A DNA stretch of 64,000 nt, taken from NCBI GenBank assembly GCA_026120185.1, contig JANUWF010001190.1:2356001-2420000 (forward strand). Reading direction: 5' to 3'. The notes beneath the pieces are model-generated. The model ran no database searches and was not told where the DNA came from. It was given only the letters and a program-made list of their open reading frames with translations. This DNA is from Voacanga thouarsii. Lineage: Eukaryota > Streptophyta > Magnoliopsida > Gentianales > Apocynaceae. Of this stretch, positions 15,156 to 25,210 are shown piece after piece (the first letter of the stretch is position 1; every line of letters begins with the position of its first letter). Both the position numbers and the translations under genes were made by a program.

Positions 15156-15522
15156 TGTTATAAAATTAGGGTAGTGTTAGAATAAAATCTACCCACTACA
15201 CACTAAGAAAATTCTAACTATTCTTTGCACAAAAATTTCTCTTCAAACTTCTCTCTTTCTTTCTCTCACAATTCTTTCTCTAATCTTTCTTTCACTAATC
15301 TTTCTTTCACAAAATGATGGTGTATTACAAGCTTAGAGAATAACTCTATTTATAGAGCTCTAATTAGTGGAATACATCATGGCATACATCGTCTTCAACT
15401 AATCTCAATTAATGGCGTCTCCACTAAATGGTGGACATTCATAAAAATCTTATAATAATTCACATAAATCCATAATTAGTGGAGCCTCCACTAATTAATA
15501 GAGATTCCAATAATTCATAACA
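15156..15522 (-). repeat. 3' LTR of the left Copia element
   Basis: A 367-bp terminal repeat that, on the minus strand, begins TGTTATGAATTATTGG and ends AATTTTATAACA. It contains CTCTATAAATAGAG, a strong TATA-type core promoter. The adjoining polypurine tract marks it as the 3' LTR. Confidence 0.93.
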
Positions 15523-16450
15523 CTCCCCCTTGGATGTCCATCCATACATAAAGAATATGCCTCGTTAAAACCTTACTAGATAAAAATCCAGTGGGAAAAA
15601 AAATCTAGTGAAGGAAAAATAGTACAATATTCTATATGTTTGTTTATTACTCCCCCTGATGAGATGATTCCTTTAAATCTTTAAACCGACGCATACCGAT
15701 TTTATATCTCAACTTCTCAAATGTTGTAGTCGGTAAAGTCTTCGTGAAAATATCTGCGAGGTTATCACATGACCGAATTTGTAGCATATCAATTTCACAT
15801 TTCTTCTGGAGTTCATGAGTAAAGAAGAATTTTGGTGAAATATGTTTTGTCCGATCTCCTTTAATATATCCTCCTCGTAATTGAACTATGCAAGCTGCAT
15901 TGTCTTCATAAAGAGGAGTTGGAATATCTTTGATTGATGATAATCCACAACTTTCTCGGATATAATGAATCATGGATCTTAACCATATACATTCTCGACT
16001 TGCTTCATGAATGGCTATAATTTCAGCATGATTTGAAGAAGTAGCTGCTATAGATTGTTTCGTAGAACGCCATGATATAGCAGTATTTTCACATGTAAAT
16101 AGATAACCCGTTTGAGAACGTGCTTTATGTGGATCAGATAAATAACCAGCATTTGCATAACCTATCAATGTTGGACTGGTTTTATTTGAATAAAATAATC
16201 CGAGATCAATTGTACCTTGGAGATATCGAATGACTTGTTTAATTCCATTCCAATGTCGTCGTGTTGGTGAAGAACTAAATCTTGCTGGTCTTTGTGAAAA
16301 ACCTTGGGCTACTAATCGCGCTTTATATCGAACGATTTCACTCTTTTCATTGCACTTTCGCACAAATATCCATTTGTAGCCAACAGGTTTTACATCTTCT
16401 GGTGTTCGGACTGCAGGTCCAAAGACTTCACGGATGACCCAACCGGTCAT
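15523..16450 (-). pseudogene. Copia pol remnant: start of RT fused to RNase H
   Basis: A 267-codon open frame (16450-15647) starts with the end of the integrase/RT linker (VFGPAVRTPE, YKWIFVRKCN, YKARLVAQGFSQRP). It then jumps directly to ARFSSSPTRRHWNG and the RNase H region (LYEDNAACI, RTKHISPKFFF, IRSCDNLADIFTK). Comparison with the right-hand element shows that about 750 bp encoding the RT palm, with its IDD catalytic box, is missing at this junction near 16290. The frame has no internal stop. It ends just before the polypurine tract and 3' LTR. Confidence 0.88.
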
Positions 16451-17560
16451 GCCAAATGCTAAAAGTAATAGGATCAGTAAACTTCTGGTTTACTAGATGA
16501 TGAATTTCAATTGTACGTATTTTTACAAAATATAGACCAGTAGAAAAATACGGCAGTTTTTCTAATACCGATTTCTTACCCAAATGCATTTGAGTAATAA
16601 AAAGATGCTCAATCCCATTTTCCTCATTTGTTTCAACATGATACCCATTTCTACGGATATCTTTAAAACTCAATAAATTTCTTCTGGATTTTGAGGAAAA
16701 TAGTGCCTTATCAATAATAATTGTTGTTCCTTTAGGCAACAATATACTAGCTCTTCCGGAGCCCTCAATTACATTTGCACTACCGTTTATCGTATAAATA
16801 TTTATTTCTCCCATTTTGAGATCAGAAAAATATTTCTCATTTTTTAGTATGGTGTGTGTAGTTTCACTATCAATAATTCATACATCATCATTAATAACGA
16901 CCATCCGAACACAAATATATATATGTAAACGTAAATATTATTAGAATAGAATGAAAATGAAAATACAAAAACATCGGGGTGAGGCTTTAGTTCTTACGGA
17001 CACTTGCCATCACCAAATAAATGGTCTATCCTACCGATCCGGGTGTTCAAAAAAATCCGATACATCCATATGGGTAATATTGATATTAAGATCTTCGGGA
17101 TCAATATCGTCATCCTCGATATTATTTATTGGATGTTGAGAAAAATTTGCTTCCACATTTTTATTTTTCAATGAAGCTTGATACAATTCAACTAAATGCT
17201 TAGCCGTACTGACAGTTTACGTGACCAATGACCTTTCATGCCACATCTATAACATATATTCTTATACTTTTCTTCAATTTCTTTTTCTTTTCCCTTTTGA
17301 TCTTTTCTGTTCCACTTGGTGGTCGGTATTTCTCACGATTTGATTATAATTGTGATAAGGGAAATATCGAGCGTGTCTACGACCATAACCACGACCACGG
17401 TCACGGCCACGGCCACGGCCACGACCACGACTATAACGATGACTTCTGCTGGAGCCAACGACATTCACTTCAGAGTCTTTGTAGAGCCGGTTGAGTGCAG
17501 CTTCATGATTTCTCAATAATAACTCATTATTTTTCTCTACAATGAGAAGGGCAATAATTA
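16428..17560 (-). pseudogene. Copia gag C-terminus, protease region and gag-pre-integrase remnant
   Basis: Starting from the right, an Arg/Gly repeat (RGRGRGRGRD, codons at about 17390-17435) and a lysine-rich stretch form the nucleic-acid-binding end of Gag. A decayed zinc-knuckle region follows. The frame at 16814-16428 has ASILLPKGTTIII and ends FSIWHDRLGHP, the usual gag-pre-integrase motif. Just after that motif the sequence jumps to the RT linker in another frame, so the whole integrase core is gone. Confidence 0.8.
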
Positions 17561-18065
17561 AATCCGTAAATTTTGTATACCCCTTTTCTCGATATTGTTG
17601 CTTTGCGGGACAATATTCGAGGCATGAAAGGTGGAGAATGTCTTCTCCAACATATCTTCATCGATCACTTTTTCTCCGCATAATTTTAATTGAGATGTAA
17701 TTTTATACATTGCGGAGCTATATTCATTCACGGTTTTAAAATCTTGCAACCTCGGGTGCAACCATTCATACCGTGCAATAGGTAGTACGACCATCTTCGG
17801 GTGGTCAAATCTTTCTTTTAAATTTACCCACGGGCCATATGGATCTTTTTCGGTAAGATATTCCATTTTCAAATTTTCATCGAGATGACGACGAATAAAA
17901 ATCAAAGCTTTAGCCTTGTGTTGTGCGAGATGCACTATTATTTGCTTGAATAGTTTCACTAAGACCTTCGACATTTAGATGCATTTACGCATCGAGAACC
18001 CATGACATATAATTTTTTCCGGAAATATCAAGGGCTACAAATTCGAGTTTCGCGATGTTAGCCAT
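17558..18065 (-). pseudogene. Copia gag remnant
   Basis: The predicted gag start is the ATG at 18065, reading MANIAKLEFVALDISGKNYM, a typical plant Copia Gag beginning. A stop codon follows within about 30 codons and a frameshift leads into the open frame 17974-17558, with DPYGPWVNLKERFDHPK and VNEYSSAMYKI, as in plant Copia Gag. The protein is therefore broken. Confidence 0.82.
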
Positions 18066-18163
18066 AGAGATCAATAAATGCGTACTGTCTTCGGCTTTGG
18101 TAACGGCAGAAACTCGTGCTTAGTCTTCGGCTTTTGTACCGGTAGAGACTCGTGCTGATAACG

Positions 18164-18530
18164 TGTTATAAAATTAGGGTAGTGTTAGAATAAAATCTAC
18201 ACACTACACACTAAGAAAATTCTAACTATTCTTTGCACAAAAATTTCTCTTCAAACTTCTCTCTTTCTTTCTCTCACAATTCTTTCTCTAATATTTCTTT
18301 CACTAATCTTTCTTTCACAAAATGATGGTGTATTACAAGCTTAGAGAATAGCTCTATTTATAGAGCTCTAATTAGTTAAATACATCATGGCATACATCAT
18401 CTTCAACTAATCTCAATTAATGGTGTCTCCACTAAATGGTGGACATTCATAAAAATCTTCTAATAATTCACATAAATTCATAATTAGTGGAGCCTCCACT
18501 AATTAATAGAGATTCCAATAATTCATAACA
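18164..18530 (-). repeat. 5' LTR of the left Copia element
   Basis: A 367-bp repeat of the same length as its partner at 15156-15522. It supplies the promoter for leftward transcription of the element. The internal region begins at 18163 with CGTTATCAGCACGAG, the likely primer-binding region, which is also found after the 5' LTR of the right-hand element. It is flanked on the right by the target duplication GATGA. Confidence 0.92.
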
Positions 18531-18535
18531 GATGA

Positions 18536-19461
18536 GAATTTAATTATCTCTCTAAATTGCTATTGATATTTTTTAAGAATTAATGAGATGGGCATGAATA
18601 TCAGAATTCATAAAATAAGTTTTTAACTATTATTTTAATATGCTTATAAAATAGAATATTATTAAATATGGATAAATTTTGAATATTAAATCTTGATTTC
18701 ATAAAAAGATAAATAATTTGAGACAAATATTAAGTTAGAAAGTGGACCGATAATTTGGAACGAAAGAAGTAAGATGTTTATCCTAATTTATCTGTCTCGT
18801 TAACAAATCAAAATTATATTAATGTTATTTTTTCACAAATATCTCTCTTTAATACAATGAGTACTGTGTACTTATAGTGAGAAATAAAAATAAATTAAAT
18901 ATGCTTACAACATATAAAGTTTTGAAATTTGATTATTCTTTAATAAAGAAAGAACTTATCTGATGGTAAAATAAGTAATGTTAATTAATTAACTGAAATT
19001 TTTTATTTTTATTTTTAAATTTATGAATCGATTAAAATTAACAGATAAAAGGGGATGGATAAATTACTATTTAGTATAATTGGATAGAAATTTACGTGAA
19101 TAGATTTATTTGAATATAATAATTAATAAAGAATTATTAAATATATAATGTTAAAATTAAATTTAATTGAGTAAAAAAAAAAAGATATGATGTGTTGAGA
19201 AATGAAAATTATTTTAATTACTATTATTTTAAATTGAAAAGAAATTGTGTCTAATTACACCTGTCTAGGATATTTTAGTAGCTAAATCCAAGCTACTAAT
19301 TAATCCTAAGAAATCACTAATATATTACAGAAATTGTTTCTAAAAAAGTGTGGGGGTTGGAGAGATGGAAAATTAATTCAAGATTATTTAAATTCGGATG
19401 CAAATATAACAAATGTTATAAATACACATAACTGAGTAGGACCATGGCAATTACTAGTTTT
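18536..19461. other. AT-rich spacer between the two Copia elements
   Basis: About 0.9 kb of AT-rich DNA without recognisable genes. It separates the left element, which transcribes leftward, from the right composite, which transcribes rightward. I see no target duplication at the right end of this spacer where the truncated Copia fragment begins. Confidence 0.6.
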
Positions 19462-19885
19462 GGATTATCATCAATCAAAGATATTCCAACTCCTCTTTAT
19501 GAAGACAATGCAGCTTGCATAGTTCAATTACGAGGAGGATATATTAAAGGAGATCGGACAAAACATATTTCACCAAAATTCTTCTTTACTCATGAACTTC
19601 AGAAGAAATGTGAAATTGATGTGCTACAAATTCGGTCATGTGATAACCTCGCAAATATTTTCACGAAGACTTTACCGACTACAACATTTGAGAAGTTGAG
19701 ATATAAAATCGGTATGCGTCAGTTTAAAGATTTAAAGGAATCATCTCATCAGGGGGAGTAATAAACAAACATATAGAATATTGTACTCTTTTTCCTTCAC
19801 TAGATTTTTTTTCCCACTGAGTTTTTATCTAGTAAGGTTTTAACGAGGCATATTCTTTATGTATGGATGGACATCCAAGGGGGAG
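19462..19885 (+). pseudogene. 5'-truncated Copia fragment: RNase H end and polypurine tract
   Basis: From about 19462 the sequence matches the RNase H end of the same Copia family (GLSSIKDIPTPLYEDN ... IFTKTLP), with a stop codon at 19759-19761. It continues through the polypurine tract AAGGGGGAG directly into the LTR at 19886. Sequence left of 19462 is unrelated. This is the 3' end of another element that shares an LTR with the element to its right. Confidence 0.87.
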
Positions 19886-20237
19886 TGTTATGAATTATTG
19901 GAATCTCTATTAATTAGTGGAGGCTCCACTAATTATGGATTTATGTGAATTATTAGAAGATTTTTATGAATGTCCACCATTTAGTGGAGACACCACTAAT
20001 TGAGATTAGTGGAAGATGATGTATGCCATGATGTATTCCACTAATTAGAGCTCTATAAATAGAGTTATTCTCTAAGCTTGTAATATACCATTATTTTTGT
20101 GAAAGAAAATTAGAGAAAGAATTGTGAGAGAAAGAAAGAGAGAAGTTTGAAGAGAAATTCTTGTGCAAAGAATAGTTAGAATTTTCTTAGTGTGTAGTGT
20201 GTAGATTTTATTCTAACACTACTCTAATTTTATAACA
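19886..20237 (+). repeat. 5' LTR of the RKD-carrying Copia element
   Basis: It begins TGTTATGAATTATTGG, contains CTCTATAAATAGAG and ends AATTTTATAACA. It is followed at once by CGTTATCAGCACGAG, the same post-LTR sequence as in the left element. It is also the 3' LTR of the truncated fragment at 19462-19885, so one LTR is shared by two internal regions. Confidence 0.9.
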
Positions 20238-20845
20238 CGTTATCAGCACGAGTCTCTACCGTTATTAAAGCCAGAAGACAGGTACGCATTTATTGATCTC
20301 GCTAAATTCGAATTTGTAGCCCTTGATATTTCTGAAAAAAAAAATTATATGTCATACAAAAATGCATCTAAATGCTAAAAAAAAGGGAGATCCATATGTC
20401 ATGTGGATAAAAATAAAGATTTGACCACCTAAAGATGGTCGTACTACCCACTGCATGGTATGAATGGTTGCACCTGAAGTTGCAAGATTGTAAAACCGTG
20501 AACTCCGTGATGTATAAAACTATATCTTAGTTAAAAATTTTACGGATAAAAAGTTACTGATGAAGTTATATTGGAGAAGACATTCTCCACTTTTCATGTC
20601 CTACAGTAATAATATCGAGAAAAAGAGTATCCAAAATTTACAGCTTTAACATGAGTTATTATTAAGAAATCATGAAGCCAGATGAACTGGCTCAACAGCA
20701 CTCCCAGAAGTGAATGTTGTTGGCTCCAGCAGAAGCCATCGTTATAATCGTAGTTGTGGCAGTGGCTGTGGTTATGGTCATGGACACACTCGCCTGAAGT
20801 GGAACAGAAAAGATAATAAGGGAAAAAGATATTTCCATTAATAAT
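20238..20845 (+). pseudogene. Degenerate gag of the RKD-carrying Copia element
   Basis: Pieces of the same Gag as in the left element can be followed (KMVVLP at about 20425, a Gly/His/Arg-rich stretch at 20710-20790, then GTGGAACAGAAAAGAT at about 20799), but with many frameshifts and stops. Similarity ends at about 20845, where the RKD segment begins. Confidence 0.75.
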
Positions 20846-20871
20846 AAGTATCACGTCTTTTATTCATATCA

Positions 20872-22271
20872 CTAGTGTTCATATGAACTTAAGGATACAT
20901 GCTTATAGTTGCTCTTTTGTAATTGAGCTGACAAATGTAAGATGAAGGTTTGTAATTGTTCTTTTTTAATATTTACATTAGAGGAAGACAAACAATTAGT
21001 AATTATGGACTTCAGCTCCTCTTTTTCGACATCCTCCTCCTTTTCTTTCCCCTTTGAGCCAGTATTGAGACTAGCAGTAGAATTAGCCGTAAAATTACTG
21101 CGAAATAAGTCTTGGGATTTTATGATCTCCTTAAGTTTATTATAATTAAATTTCTTATTATATTTAGCCTTGAAGCATGCTTGTCTCAATTTCTGTGTTT
21201 GGTCCTCTAATTGCGTATTAGGATTTTCTTCCACCAACTGTTTTTCACATTCCAGTATCGCAATGGCTTCTTTCAACTTCTTCTCAGTCATATGTCCTCC
21301 TTCTTCTTTATTTTGCATCTCCTGTAAATCGAAGTGATATCATCGGTTATTTACTTATAAATCTTTCATAGTTTCATACTTGTAAATTATAAGTATATAT
21401 GAGAGAGAACCTGAACATTCTTGATTATGGTCTCCAAGCTCACCAATTTCCTGTGAGGCCATCGACGAATTCCTAACTCCCTACATCTTTTTTTGAGACG
21501 GGTTATGCCAATATTCAATTCTTTGGCTGCGCTCCTGATTAGTAGGTAAAAATACTGCGAAATTGTTTCTCTTGATAGTGTCTGGGAGTTATTGCCCTTC
21601 TTCTCTCTCTGCCTCTTAATCATCTTCTTCTCCCCAAGAATTTTGTCTGCAATAATATCTTGAACTTCGATATTATGCATTTCATGAGTACTTACTCCGA
21701 CTTCATTGCTAAGACCACTCATTATTTCTCCTAGAAAAAGAAAATAATATCAGTAAAGGTAATACCATTCAAAATCCATGTTTAAATGTATAATAACCTG
21801 GAAACATATTATGGCTTTGTTCAAAATCCATTAGAAAGTAGAAAGGATCATGCACAAGCATATCCTCATTCAAATGAATAGCATCAAGAGGAACAGTATC
21901 AAAAGCAGTCTCTTGTAGGGGCAGATCAACTTAGTCCAAAGCAGTATGTTCAAAACTTCCACTGATTTACATCAAAAACAAACCAAAAGAGAGTTTAATT
22001 TCATTATCAAGCATATTAAAAACAAATGGAAGCCCTCAAAGGTATCTCACCTGAAATTAGGAGGAAGCGGTTGGTATGGAAAGGAAAACATATCAAAATC
22101 TTCTACGTTCGAATTAGGCAGAAGCGGTTGGTTTGGAAAGGAAAACATATCAAAATCTTCTGTGTTCGAATTAGGCAGAAGCGGCTGGTTTGGAAAGGAA
22201 AATACATCAACATCTGCTACAGAAACCGAGTCAAAATTTGACCATATCTCAAATGAATTACGAGTCTCCAT
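20872..22271 (-). pseudogene. RWP-RK domain (RKD-type) transcription factor carried in a Copia element, one nonsense codon
   Basis: Four exons: 22271-22051, 21961-21798, 21730-21411, 21321-20872; 384 codons if the stop is ignored. Exon 1 encodes a 19-residue unit (FSFPNQPLLPNSNTEDFDM) three times. Exon 3 has the RWP-RK domain: ISQYFYLLIRSAAKELN, LKKRCRELGIRRWPHRK, then SLETIIKNVQ. Exon 4 continues as in RKD proteins with a Glu/Lys helix (LECEKQLVEENPNTQL, KLRQACFKAKYNKK). All introns are GT-AG and frame-consistent. In exon 2 codon 84 is TAA (21931-21933), probably from CAA, so the full product is broken. ATG codons in exons 2 and 3 could still give a protein with the whole DNA-binding domain. 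RKD factors act in egg-cell and early embryo programmes, and a citrus RKD is linked to nucellar embryony. Confidence 0.88.
22054..22212 (-). repeat. Threefold 57-bp coding repeat in RKD exon 1
   Basis: Three tandem units of about 57 bp encode FSFPNQPLLPNSN[T/V]EDFDM and a diverged last copy FSFPYQPLPPNF. The units are nearly identical, so the amplification is recent. The array ends at the exon 1 donor. Confidence 0.9.
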
Positions 22272-22332
22272 ATCTGCTTTGTGATTTTTGTTTTTGATGT
22301 TTACTAATGATTGATAACTGAGATATATATCG

Positions 22333-22373
<41 letters not shown>

Positions 22374-22590
22374 AGGAAGAAGAAGAGGTAGATGGTAGGT
22401 AGAGGGTTGGAGGAGAAGAAAATACAAGAGAGGAAGACGAAAAGTCGGTACCGGGAAGAGTGCAAAAAAAAAGGATATATTTTTCTTGGCATTTCCTGCT
22501 TGTCATCATTTTCTTATATTTCTTTTCTTATTCTCCTGTGAAATCATTATTCCCTAATTAGGGGGAGAACAGAAACAGTACAAGAAAGAT
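22272..22590 (-). promoter_or_regulatory. Captured upstream region of the RKD gene
   Basis: About 300 bp between the RKD start codon and the point where Copia integrase resumes (about 22590, ATTGGACAACATCATTAAAT). It contains an (AT)n run at about 22335-22364 and purine-rich blocks on the plus strand, and no Copia similarity. It is best read as the 5' leader and part of the promoter taken along with the gene. Confidence 0.6.
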
Positions 22591-24717
22591 CGTGATTGGA
22601 CAACATCATTAAATTATCTTGATCCGCATACAAGCGCGTGTGAACTTGAAGTTCAAAAGATAATTTATTTGTAAAGCATTGCAAATCAAATGCCAAACGC
22701 TTTTGTTGACTCTAGAAGAGTAACAAAATCGCATATGCCAGCTATAAATGCTCATATTCTAATTGAAGTTCCAACAGAACAAAAGATTTTACATATAGCT
22801 GCTGAGCTAAAAGTGTGCCAGAAGCATGGCCGACCTCTTGGTTCTAAAGATAAAAATCCTCGAAAGAAGAGAGGATTAATGGTCCAGATGATCATATTAA
22901 AGTAAAGAATGATAAAGACTAAGAGAAAACTTATGACAAAGAACCAGACATAAATGAAAGTAACACTGAAATTTCTATCCATTATACCACTTCCGGTAGA
23001 AGTTGGAATCGGATAAAAACAATTATTGATCATATGTTTGCATATAATATCTCTTGATGTTATACAGGATAGTGATGATCCTAAACCAATATCAGTTGAT
23101 GAATGTCGGCATAGAAAAGATTGACTGCAATGGAAAGATGCGATTCAATCGGAATTAAATGCACTAACAAAACATGAAGTCTTCGGACCTGCGGTTCGAA
23201 CGCCAGAAGGTGTAAAACTTGTTGGCTACAAATGGATATTTGTGCGAAAGCGCAATGAAAATAGTGAAATCGTTCGATATAAAGCGTGATTAGTAGCCCA
23301 AGATTTTTCACAAAGACCAAGTATTGATTATGATGAAACTTATTCTCCTGTTATTGATGCTATTACACTCCGATATCTTATCAGTTTGGCAGTACATGAA
23401 AAGATAGATATGCGCCTATTAGATGTTGTCACTGCTTACTTGTATGGAAATTTAGAAAATGATGTTTACATGAAAATCCCCGAAGGATTTCATATGCCTG
23501 AAGCACATAAACATTATCCTCGTGAAAATTACTCCATCAAGTTGCAGAAATCATTATATGGCTTGAAGCAATCTGGGCGTATGTGGTTCACACGTCTTAG
23601 TGAATATTTATTGAAAGCGGGATTTAAAAATGACCAGGTATGTCCATGTATTTTTATTAAGAAATCTGGTTCTAAATTTGTGATATTAGCTATATATATT
23701 GATGATATTAATCTTATTGGAACTCCCGAAGAACTTTAAGAAACAATTGATTATTTAAAAAGAGAATTCGAAATCAAGGATTTTGGCAAAACCAAATTTT
23801 ACCTTGGTTTACAAATTGAACATCTGGAGAGTGGAACATTTATTCATCAATCAACATATACAGCAAAAGTGCTAAAAAGATTTTACATGGACAAAGTACA
23901 TCCATTGAGTATTCCAATGATCGTCCGATCATTAAATGTGGATAAAGATCCTTTCCGACCTCAAGAAAATGATGAAGAACTCCTTAGTCCTGAAGTACCA
24001 TATCTCAGTGCAATTGGTGCATTGATGTATCTTGCCAATAATACACGACTTGATATTGCTTTTGCTGTCAATTTATTAGCAAGATTTAGTTCTTCACCAA
24101 CACGACGACATTGGAATGGAATTAAACAAGTCATTCGATATCTCTAAGGTACAATTGATCTCGGATTATTTTATTCAAATAAAATCAGTCCAACATTGAT
24201 AGGTTATGCAGATGCTGGTTATTTATCTGATCCACATAAAGCACGTTCTTAAACGGGCTATCTATTTACACGTGGAAATACTGCTATATCATGGCGTTTT
24301 ACGAAACAATCTATAGCAGCTACTTCTTCAAATCATGCTGAAATTATAACCATTCATGAAGTAAGTCGAGAATGTGTATGGCTAAGATCCATGATTCATT
24401 ATATCCAAGAAAGTTGTGGATTATCATCAATCAAAGATATTCCAACTCCTCTTTATGAAGACAATGCAGCTTGCATAGCTCAATTACGAGGAGGATATAT
24501 TAAAGGAGATCGGACAAAACATATTTCACCAAAATTCTTCTTTACTCATGAACTCCAGAAGAAATGTGAAATTTATGTGCTACAAATTCGGTCATGTGAT
24601 AACCTCGCAGATATTTTCACGAAGACTTTACCGACTGCAACATTTGAGAAGTTGAGATATAAAATCGGTATGCGTCGGTTTAAAGATTTAAATGAATCAT
24701 CTCATCAGGGGGAGTAA
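22590..24717 (+). pseudogene. Copia pol remnant: integrase end, reverse transcriptase, RNase H
   Basis: The segment begins with the integrase/RT linker (LDPHTSACELEVQKI, NAFVDSRRVTKSHMP, KHGRPLGSKDKNP). It proceeds through RT blocks (YKWIFVRKRN, DYDETYSPVID, VTAYLYGNLENDVYMKIPEG, LQKSLYGLKQSGRMW, LAIYIDDINLIGTPEEL) to RNase H (SSPTRRHWNGIKQVIRYL, DNAACIAQLRGG, IFTKTLPTATFEK). Stops or frameshifts at about 22918, 23287, 23737, 24145 and 24250 disable it. The catalytic YIDD box itself is intact. Confidence 0.9.
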
Positions 24718-24842
24718 TAAACAGACATATAGAATATTGTACTCTTTTTCCTTCACTAGATTTTTTTTCCCACTGGGTTTTTATCTAGTAAGGTTTTAAC
24801 GAGGTATATTATTTATGTAATGGATGGACATCCAATGGGGAG

Positions 24843-25210
24843 TGTTATGAATTATTGGAATCTTTATTAATTAGTGGAGGCTCCACTAATTATGGATTTA
24901 TGTGAATTATTAGAAGATTTTTATGGATGTCCACCATTTAGTGGAGACACCACTAATTGAGATTAGTGGAAGATGATGTATGCCATGATGTATTCCACTA
25001 ATTAGAGCTCTATAAATAGAGTTATTCTCTAAGCTTGTAATACACCATTATTTTTGTGAAAGAAAGATTAGTGAAAGAAAGATTAGAGAAAGAATTGTGA
25101 GAGAAAGAAAGAGAGAAGTTTGAAGAGAAATTCTTGTGCAAAGAATAGTTAGAATTTTCTTAGTGTGTAGTGTGTAGATTTTATTCTAACACTACCCTAA
25201 TTTTATAACA
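24843..25210 (+). repeat. 3' LTR of the RKD-carrying Copia element
   Basis: A 368-bp LTR after the polypurine tract (CCAATGGGGAG). It contains one more copy of the GTGAAAGAAAGATTA unit than the 5' LTR, which accounts for the length difference. The next bases outside are ACATG. Confidence 0.92.

Follow-up and report, generated by a model that had tools for sequence, protein, structure and literature searches.

An RKD transcription factor gene carried in antisense by a mobile Copia retrotransposon of Voacanga thouarsii

We analyzed a 64,000-nucleotide stretch of the Voacanga thouarsii genome (GenBank assembly GCA_026120185.1, contig JANUWF010001190.1, positions 2,356,001 to 2,420,000; hereafter "the window") in which a Copia retrotransposon with two long terminal repeats (LTRs), element B at positions 19886 to 25210, encloses a gene of the RKD family of RWP-RK transcription factors on the opposite strand. 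Members of the RKD family are known for their control of egg and embryo identity. We found that the two parts form a chimera that moves as one unit, as its LTRs, junctions and target duplications demonstrate. Since its gag is broken and its protease-integrase part has given way to the cargo, movement was probably in trans, and we consider it very probable overall that this is a mobile chimera of Copia element and RKD gene that is mobilized in trans. Element B is built as follows (coordinates within the window):

19886..20237, plus strand: 5' LTR of the cargo-bearing Copia element (TG...CA), matching 24843-25210 at a Kimura two-parameter (K2P) distance of 0.011
20238..20845, plus strand: leader and broken gag remnant, recognized by similarity, without an open reading frame (ORF) of at least 60 amino acids
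20846..22540, minus strand: captured cargo, made up of the upstream region, all four exons and three introns of an RKD gene plus a short 3' part; its junctions recur genome-wide
22051..22271, minus strand: RKD exon 1, with the start codon at 22271 and a 57-bp tandem repeat at 22055-22225
21798..21961, minus strand: RKD exon 2, with an in-frame stop in the window copy at about 21931-21933
21411..21730, minus strand: RKD exon 3 with the RWP-RK domain (PF02042, E 3.3e-21)
20869..21321, minus strand: RKD exon 4
22541..24842, plus strand: probable integrase end, then Copia reverse transcriptase (RT), RNase H and a purine-rich tract, with several stops in this copy
24843..25210, plus strand: 3' LTR, matching the 5' LTR

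A first-pass annotation had proposed matching LTRs, a gag remnant, a four-exon RWP-RK gene in opposite orientation and a downstream RT, and all of these were recovered. The LTRs lie at the positions given there, the gag remnant behind the 5' LTR is 73.5% identical to the gag of a cargo-less relative in the same window (element A, see below), all introns of the RKD gene (exons 22271-22051, 21961-21798, 21730-21411, and 21321-20869) are of the GT-AG type, and two plus-strand Pfam matches to RVT_2 (E 3e-36 and 1.1e-7) lie downstream of the cargo. With this Copia-type RT, the TG...CA LTRs and the 5-bp target-site duplications (TSDs) around copies of its family, element B is a Ty1/Copia LTR retrotransposon. 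The left cargo edge at about 20845 stood as proposed, and the right edge had to be moved from about 22590 to about 22540, where reading of the Copia frame shows it to restart as EIIIP*LGGEQKQYKKDRDWTTSLNYLDPHTSACELEVQKI. Going by Copia motifs rather than a profile, we take this frame to be the probable end of integrase ahead of the RT. The cargo would thereby occupy the protease-integrase stretch, as the annotation had it, judging from domain order and similarity. The RKD frame of the window copy is interrupted by a stop at codon 84 in exon 2, and a tRNA scan of the window returned no tRNA genes.

The annotation had also proposed gene capture by an LTR element able to spread copies, to be checked by searching the genome for both junctions, and this search bore the proposal out. 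A 301-base query across the left junction (40 places scored of 2,002 candidates) found the window and at least 39 other places, mostly over its full length and at 87-95% identity, and a query across the right junction (40 places scored of 2,557 candidates) found the window and, with 97-98% identity across 299 or 301 bases, at least 39 others. From the best-scoring places we then fetched 20 loci of about 10 kb each, with L001-L008 excluded as repeats of the window or of L009-L015. At 18 of these 20 loci, a pair of LTRs brackets the unit of gag remnant, cargo and RT part, with internal deletions in some; the exceptions are L016, which is without the right part, and the rearranged L025. Perfect 5-bp TSDs flank 13 of the 18 LTR pairs, two of them of low complexity (L020 and L022). 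The remaining five (L011, L014, L019, L021, and L024) are without a perfect duplication, and L021 and L024 were kept in this count despite a truncated 5' LTR. Divergence between paired LTRs (K) is 0.003-0.045, which corresponds to about 0.1 to 1.8 million years at the rate of 1.3e-8 used in PMC10011142 and PMC5664825, and 0.061 for L024 with its truncated 5' LTR; this low divergence indicates recent movement. The gag region has no ORF of at least 60 amino acids at any of the 20 fetched loci or in the window, and the protease-integrase stretch is replaced by cargo as far as order and similarity show, so these units have the makeup of non-autonomous elements. A search of a plasmid collection with the left junction gave no match, which is uninformative.

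Copy number was estimated with a 31-mer from intron 3 of the cargo that is found with at most two mismatches in all 56 aligned copies. This probe occurs at 951 + 940 = 1,891 places in the 1.35-Gb genome, fragments and a few local tandems included, and its reversed control at none, which puts the cargo copies on the order of 1,900. A 31-mer from the right junction occurs at 832 + 877 places (control 0), but we dropped it as sole measure of cargo copies because it lies on the Copia side. Pairing the two probes, we found an exact cargo 31-mer in the expected orientation 1.1-1.4 kb away (1,238 bp in the window) for at least 17 of 36 exact right-junction places, a lower bound because a pair counted only if both 31-mers matched exactly and stood among the first hundred listed. 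The 36 come from 38 places up to contig C447, the two on C447 itself being omitted with no listed cargo place near them. One local tandem array from inside the cargo (C198:1601107-1604219) has six exact intron 3 31-mers at a spacing of about 616 bp and entered the pairing as one of its six places.

The mobile chimera exists in at least two subfamilies. Locus L068, of which 3.6 kb were fetched, represents the older one. Its parts follow the order of the window element, and their identity to that element is 87% for the LTR, 76% for the gag remnant, 82% for the cargo, and 91% for the right part (520 bp). Its RKD frame is open over 365 codons, with canonical splice sites.

Judging by an RWP-RK domain without PB1 and by full-length homology, we assign the cargo to the RKD subfamily. 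PF02042 is the sole Pfam family found at E 0.001 in the proteins of L019 and L068, with no PB1 domain as in NLP proteins, and the open-frame protein of L019 shows 43-48% identity, over its full length, to RKDs or RWP-RK proteins of Cornus, Olea, Nyssa, Fagus, Camellia, and Malania. When 5.8 billion proteins were searched, 185 matched, and the best-scoring one shares 41% identity across 85% of the query; since higher identities (up to 65%) among the 120 matches listed span just about one third of the query, there is no near relative of the cargo among them. The 57-bp tandem repeat in exon 1 (22055-22225 in the window) encodes FSFPNQPLLPNSN.EDFDM, and its unit number varies between copies with the frame kept. 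Single-base shifts in exon 2 are common to several copies, and in several (e.g., L009 and L024) clustered 1-bp insertions shift and then partly restore the frame.

Because the cargo has introns and brings along some 270 bp of upstream sequence, a genomic segment was captured and not a cDNA, and all six canonical splice dinucleotides are present in 38 of the 55 nearly full-length copies introduced below. In a tree of RKD sequences (169 columns, ten sequences from the V. thouarsii genome), four cargo copies form one clade with an ultrafast bootstrap (UFboot) support of 100; being monophyletic and sharing their junctions, the copies look like one family from a single capture. A head-to-head RKD pair at locus L073 (C486:1180500-1182700) groups with the cargo clade, again with UFboot 100, and the nearest sampled relative of the V. 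thouarsii RKDs from outside is a Camellia sinensis protein (100), with several other nodes weak. Exons 3 and 4 are long and open in the L073 pair, whose 2.2 kb match the cargo only and not LTR, gag, or right part (no search for other carriers of L073 was made). By its place in the tree, this pair is probably close to the donor of the cargo and is the nearest such locus found.

Apart from the copies in the Copia element, RKD genes seem to be scattered elsewhere in this genome too. A Cornus RKD query gave 6,761 first-look candidates, 111 of which were scored with 181 matches. A second dispersed repeat is typified by L070 (C694:241300-243700), which keeps introns 1 and 2 and is without intron 3. 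Reading copies that continue across the exon 3/4 border as fully processed is thus wrong for L070, and L071 ends within exon 3 and cannot show its processing state. Among 40 places scored of 3,861 candidates for the L070 type, larger pieces are 79-93% identical, several over nearly all 2.4 kb including flanks. The upstream flank (L070:2220-2401 and L074:1-370) holds GACGGTT/AACCGTCG-like motifs that may correspond to those in the subterminal regions of CACTA elements. A third type, L069 (C591:1750700-1752600), comprises many copies that share a sharp edge at L069:43, and its larger pieces are 82-89% identical among 40 places scored of 2,944 candidates. At L072 (C1831:89200-90900), an RKD copy adjoins sequence at about 1440-1660 that may be the end of an Athila/Tat-type Gypsy element, which it resembles.

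The surroundings of element B in the window include two further pieces of the same Copia LTR family, with elements A and B lying side by side:

15156..18530, minus strand: element A, cargo-less and internally deleted, of the same LTR family, with LTRs at 15156-15522 and 18164-18530 and a perfect 5-bp TSD (TCATC)
19456..19885, plus strand: 3' end of another element copy, with the end of RNase H and a purine-rich tract, directly followed by the shared LTR; 19456-20237 matches 24412-25210 at 95.7%

Element A retains a gag match (PF14223, E 6.4e-6, just under the Pfam cut-off), Pol_BBD, and a piece of RVT_2. The segment 19456-19885 repeats the 3' end of element B at 24412-24842. Since this Copia 3' end precedes the 5' LTR and no TSD was found at element B, the window copy is part of an LTR-sharing tandem, and its 5' LTR is not an insertion edge. 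The gag of B (20388-20771) is 73.5% identical to that of A (17407-17846), and LTRs and RNase H ends of the two are about 96-97% alike, a pattern that looks as if the LTR and 3' part of B had been swapped with the cargo-less lineage.

Such irregularities could be expected if an RKD locus had inserted by chance into one Copia element, the alternative named by the first-pass annotation, or if Copia fragments had come to lie around a native RKD gene, the whole being immobile: the window copy taken alone, with a Copia 3' end before its 5' LTR, no TSD, and a gag only 73.5% like that of its relative, would fit either scenario. We rejected both as extremely improbable on the grounds of the independent TSD-flanked insertions, the LTR-flanked units, the recurrence of each junction at 39 or more other places, and the roughly 1,900 cargo copies. 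An assembly artefact or collapsed repeats might be suspected in a repeat-rich region where first-look candidates outnumber scored places, yet the units differ by several per cent and sit on separate contigs with their own flanks and TSDs. Together with the recurring junctions, this leaves an assembly error a negligible probability. A different possibility is that the RKD gene already resided in another mobile repeat, e.g., a CACTA-like one, that jumped into the Copia element and was then amplified with it. Other RKD-bearing dispersed repeats do exist (the L070 and L069 types), and the flank shared by L070 and L074 has the GACGGTT/AACCGTCG-like motifs, with a possible likeness to CACTA. However, the similarity of the cargo to L069 and L070 ends near the gene, and the L073 pair, which is closest to it among the RKDs (UFboot 100), matches the cargo only, so that we hold this route to be unlikely.

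Coding capacity was assessed in 59 cargo copies, of which 55 were nearly full length (L016, L039, L048, and L053 left out). The frame is open from ATG to stop in eight of these 55 (L014, L019, L026, L028, L029, L031, L043, and L060; 365-384 codons), six of which also have all canonical splice dinucleotides, and broken in the other 47. Indels were counted in an alignment of 56 copies, which also served for the 31-mer (without L016, L039, L048, and the window), and branch tests used 57 rows (the same copies plus the window); one earlier copy set was without L016 and L021. Of the indels private to one of the 56 copies, 14 fall within 300 noncoding bp and 78 within exons, where 17 have a length divisible by 3; nothing in them points to constraint after insertion. 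Between the intact copies L068 and L019, by comparison, all five exon indels in 1,084 bp (3, 57, 9, 15, and 6 bp; the 57-bp one, printed as 56+1, counted as one unit) are multiples of 3, as are five of the 20 indels in 542 bp of noncoding cargo. Fisher tests gave p 0.0009 for the in-frame share and p 2e-6 for density. On internal branches of the copy tree, the ratio of nonsynonymous (N) to synonymous (S) changes is 0.63 of expectation (p 0.004; 82 N, 51 S, and 3 stops vs. 91, 36, and 9 expected), and on terminal branches 0.79 (p 0.0003).

From these indel patterns we lean towards the view that selection kept the RKD frame in at least some source lineages, with the frame then presumably decaying freely after each insertion. 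Several observations speak against this view or against non-autonomy of the chimera. The 59 copies come from best-scoring lists and are not a random sample, and L019 and L068 were both chosen as intact, which favors in-frame indels. Exon indels shared by at least two of the 56 copies are not multiples of 3 in 25 of 29 cases, each in 2-8 copies, and frame-broken copies may thus have been sources as well, unless slippage or compensating shifts recur. Substitution tests lean towards selection but are weak. The dN/dS of 0.41-0.44 between the subfamilies is no proof of it, as neutral simulation with the observed mutation spectrum gave 0.61 +/- 0.14, with 83 of 1000 runs at or below 0.44. The branch test is unsafe since control frames stray too, from 0.68 to 1.8 on internal branches, and the copy tree reaches UFboot values of 95 or more at 6 of 54 nodes. 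As for non-autonomy, ORFs on the RT side reach 599 amino acids (L024), and it is order and similarity, not a profile, that indicate the loss of protease and integrase core.

A mobile chimera in which the RKD gene is a passive hitchhiker, its open frames stemming from recent bursts of a few intact sources and its protein under no lasting selection, is accordingly a serious contender that we would still call somewhat doubtful. The 47 broken copies, the private indels without frame constraint, the predominance of frame-breaking shared indels, and a dN/dS within reach of neutral simulation all suit a hitchhiker, but two subfamilies 18% apart in their cargo are both open, and five in-frame exon indels face 20 noncoding ones in half the length.

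Under our preferred reading of a chimera mobilized in trans, a Copia lineage of V. thouarsii took up a genomic RKD gene in antisense, most simply once. The gene replaced what lay between gag and the end of integrase, the expected place of protease and integrase core. Relatives that share its LTR, with element A as a possible decayed example, would mobilize the resulting non-autonomous element. Introns could survive because they are antisense in the genomic RNA of the element and hence unspliceable, and the RKD gene may be expressed from the cargo's own upstream region. For such selection, the likeliest though unproven reason would be that a protein working in egg or early embryo was of benefit to the element or to the plants carrying it. 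In a specific version of this idea, which we find rather unlikely, RKD would be an accessory gene whose product, made from the gene's own upstream region in egg or early embryo, keeps or recreates a germline-like state for transcription of the LTRs and the helper, and the element would be selected for it. If that were true, the element would carry its own germline switch, and the open copies of this embryo regulator with which the plant lives might number in the hundreds, provided that the sampled share holds.

Whatever maintains it, the chimera has brought a gene from a family of egg and embryo regulators to far more than a thousand sites of a single genome. This is relevant to the ways in which embryony from maternal tissue could arise, and it is a caution that transposons can drive the number of RKD genes counted in a plant. 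The conserved antisense genes of plant LTR elements have long been puzzling. In the present case such a gene is recognizable as that of a transcription factor, retains its introns and is similar enough to host RKDs to be compared with them, which makes its origin, expression, and selection directly testable. We found no earlier description of an RKD gene in a Copia chimera in the open-licence literature, judged by titles and abstract openings.

The closest parallels are antisense extra ORFs of plant LTR elements, which the compared passages of PMC7264820 and PMC11963269 describe as being of unknown origin and without similar host genes outside transposons, transduced genes usually lying in sense. 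Like the aORF-3R elements treated there (maize Grande with gene23, rice RIRE2, Silene Retand, and PvRetro13), the chimera has an antisense gene in most copies of its family; for the aORF-3R side, these passages report an own promoter of Grande gene23 and suggest nuclear or DNA-binding potential for several of the genes. Unlike in aORF-3R elements, where the gene lies between pol and 3' LTR, our cargo lies between gag remnant and RT part at the 18 two-LTR loci, the element is a Copia one, and the cargo is a recognizable host-type transcription factor gene with introns (PMC7264820, PMC11963269). Host genes inside LTR elements are also found in maize Bs1 (as cited in the compared part of PMC7264820) and in the retroduplication of NLR genes in pepper, where the passages compared report about 72% non-autonomous carriers and purifying selection (PMC5664825). 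The pepper cases were verified there by intron loss, while our cargo keeps its introns, is antisense, and numbers on the order of 1,900 copies for one chimera. For LTR-borne RWP-RK genes, pearl millet is a real precedent: RWP-RK genes of this grass overlap intact LTR elements, and their expansion is tied to LTR activity, with neither orientation, introns, junctions, and copy numbers nor a single common chimera described in the passages compared (PMC10011142). For embryony itself, an insertion of a miniature inverted-repeat transposable element at CitRKD1 is reported from citrus (PMC6090715), and a promoter insertion is reported for polyembryony in mango (PMC10709545); in both, the insertion alters a resident gene, whereas in V. 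thouarsii the transposon itself carries the RKD gene.

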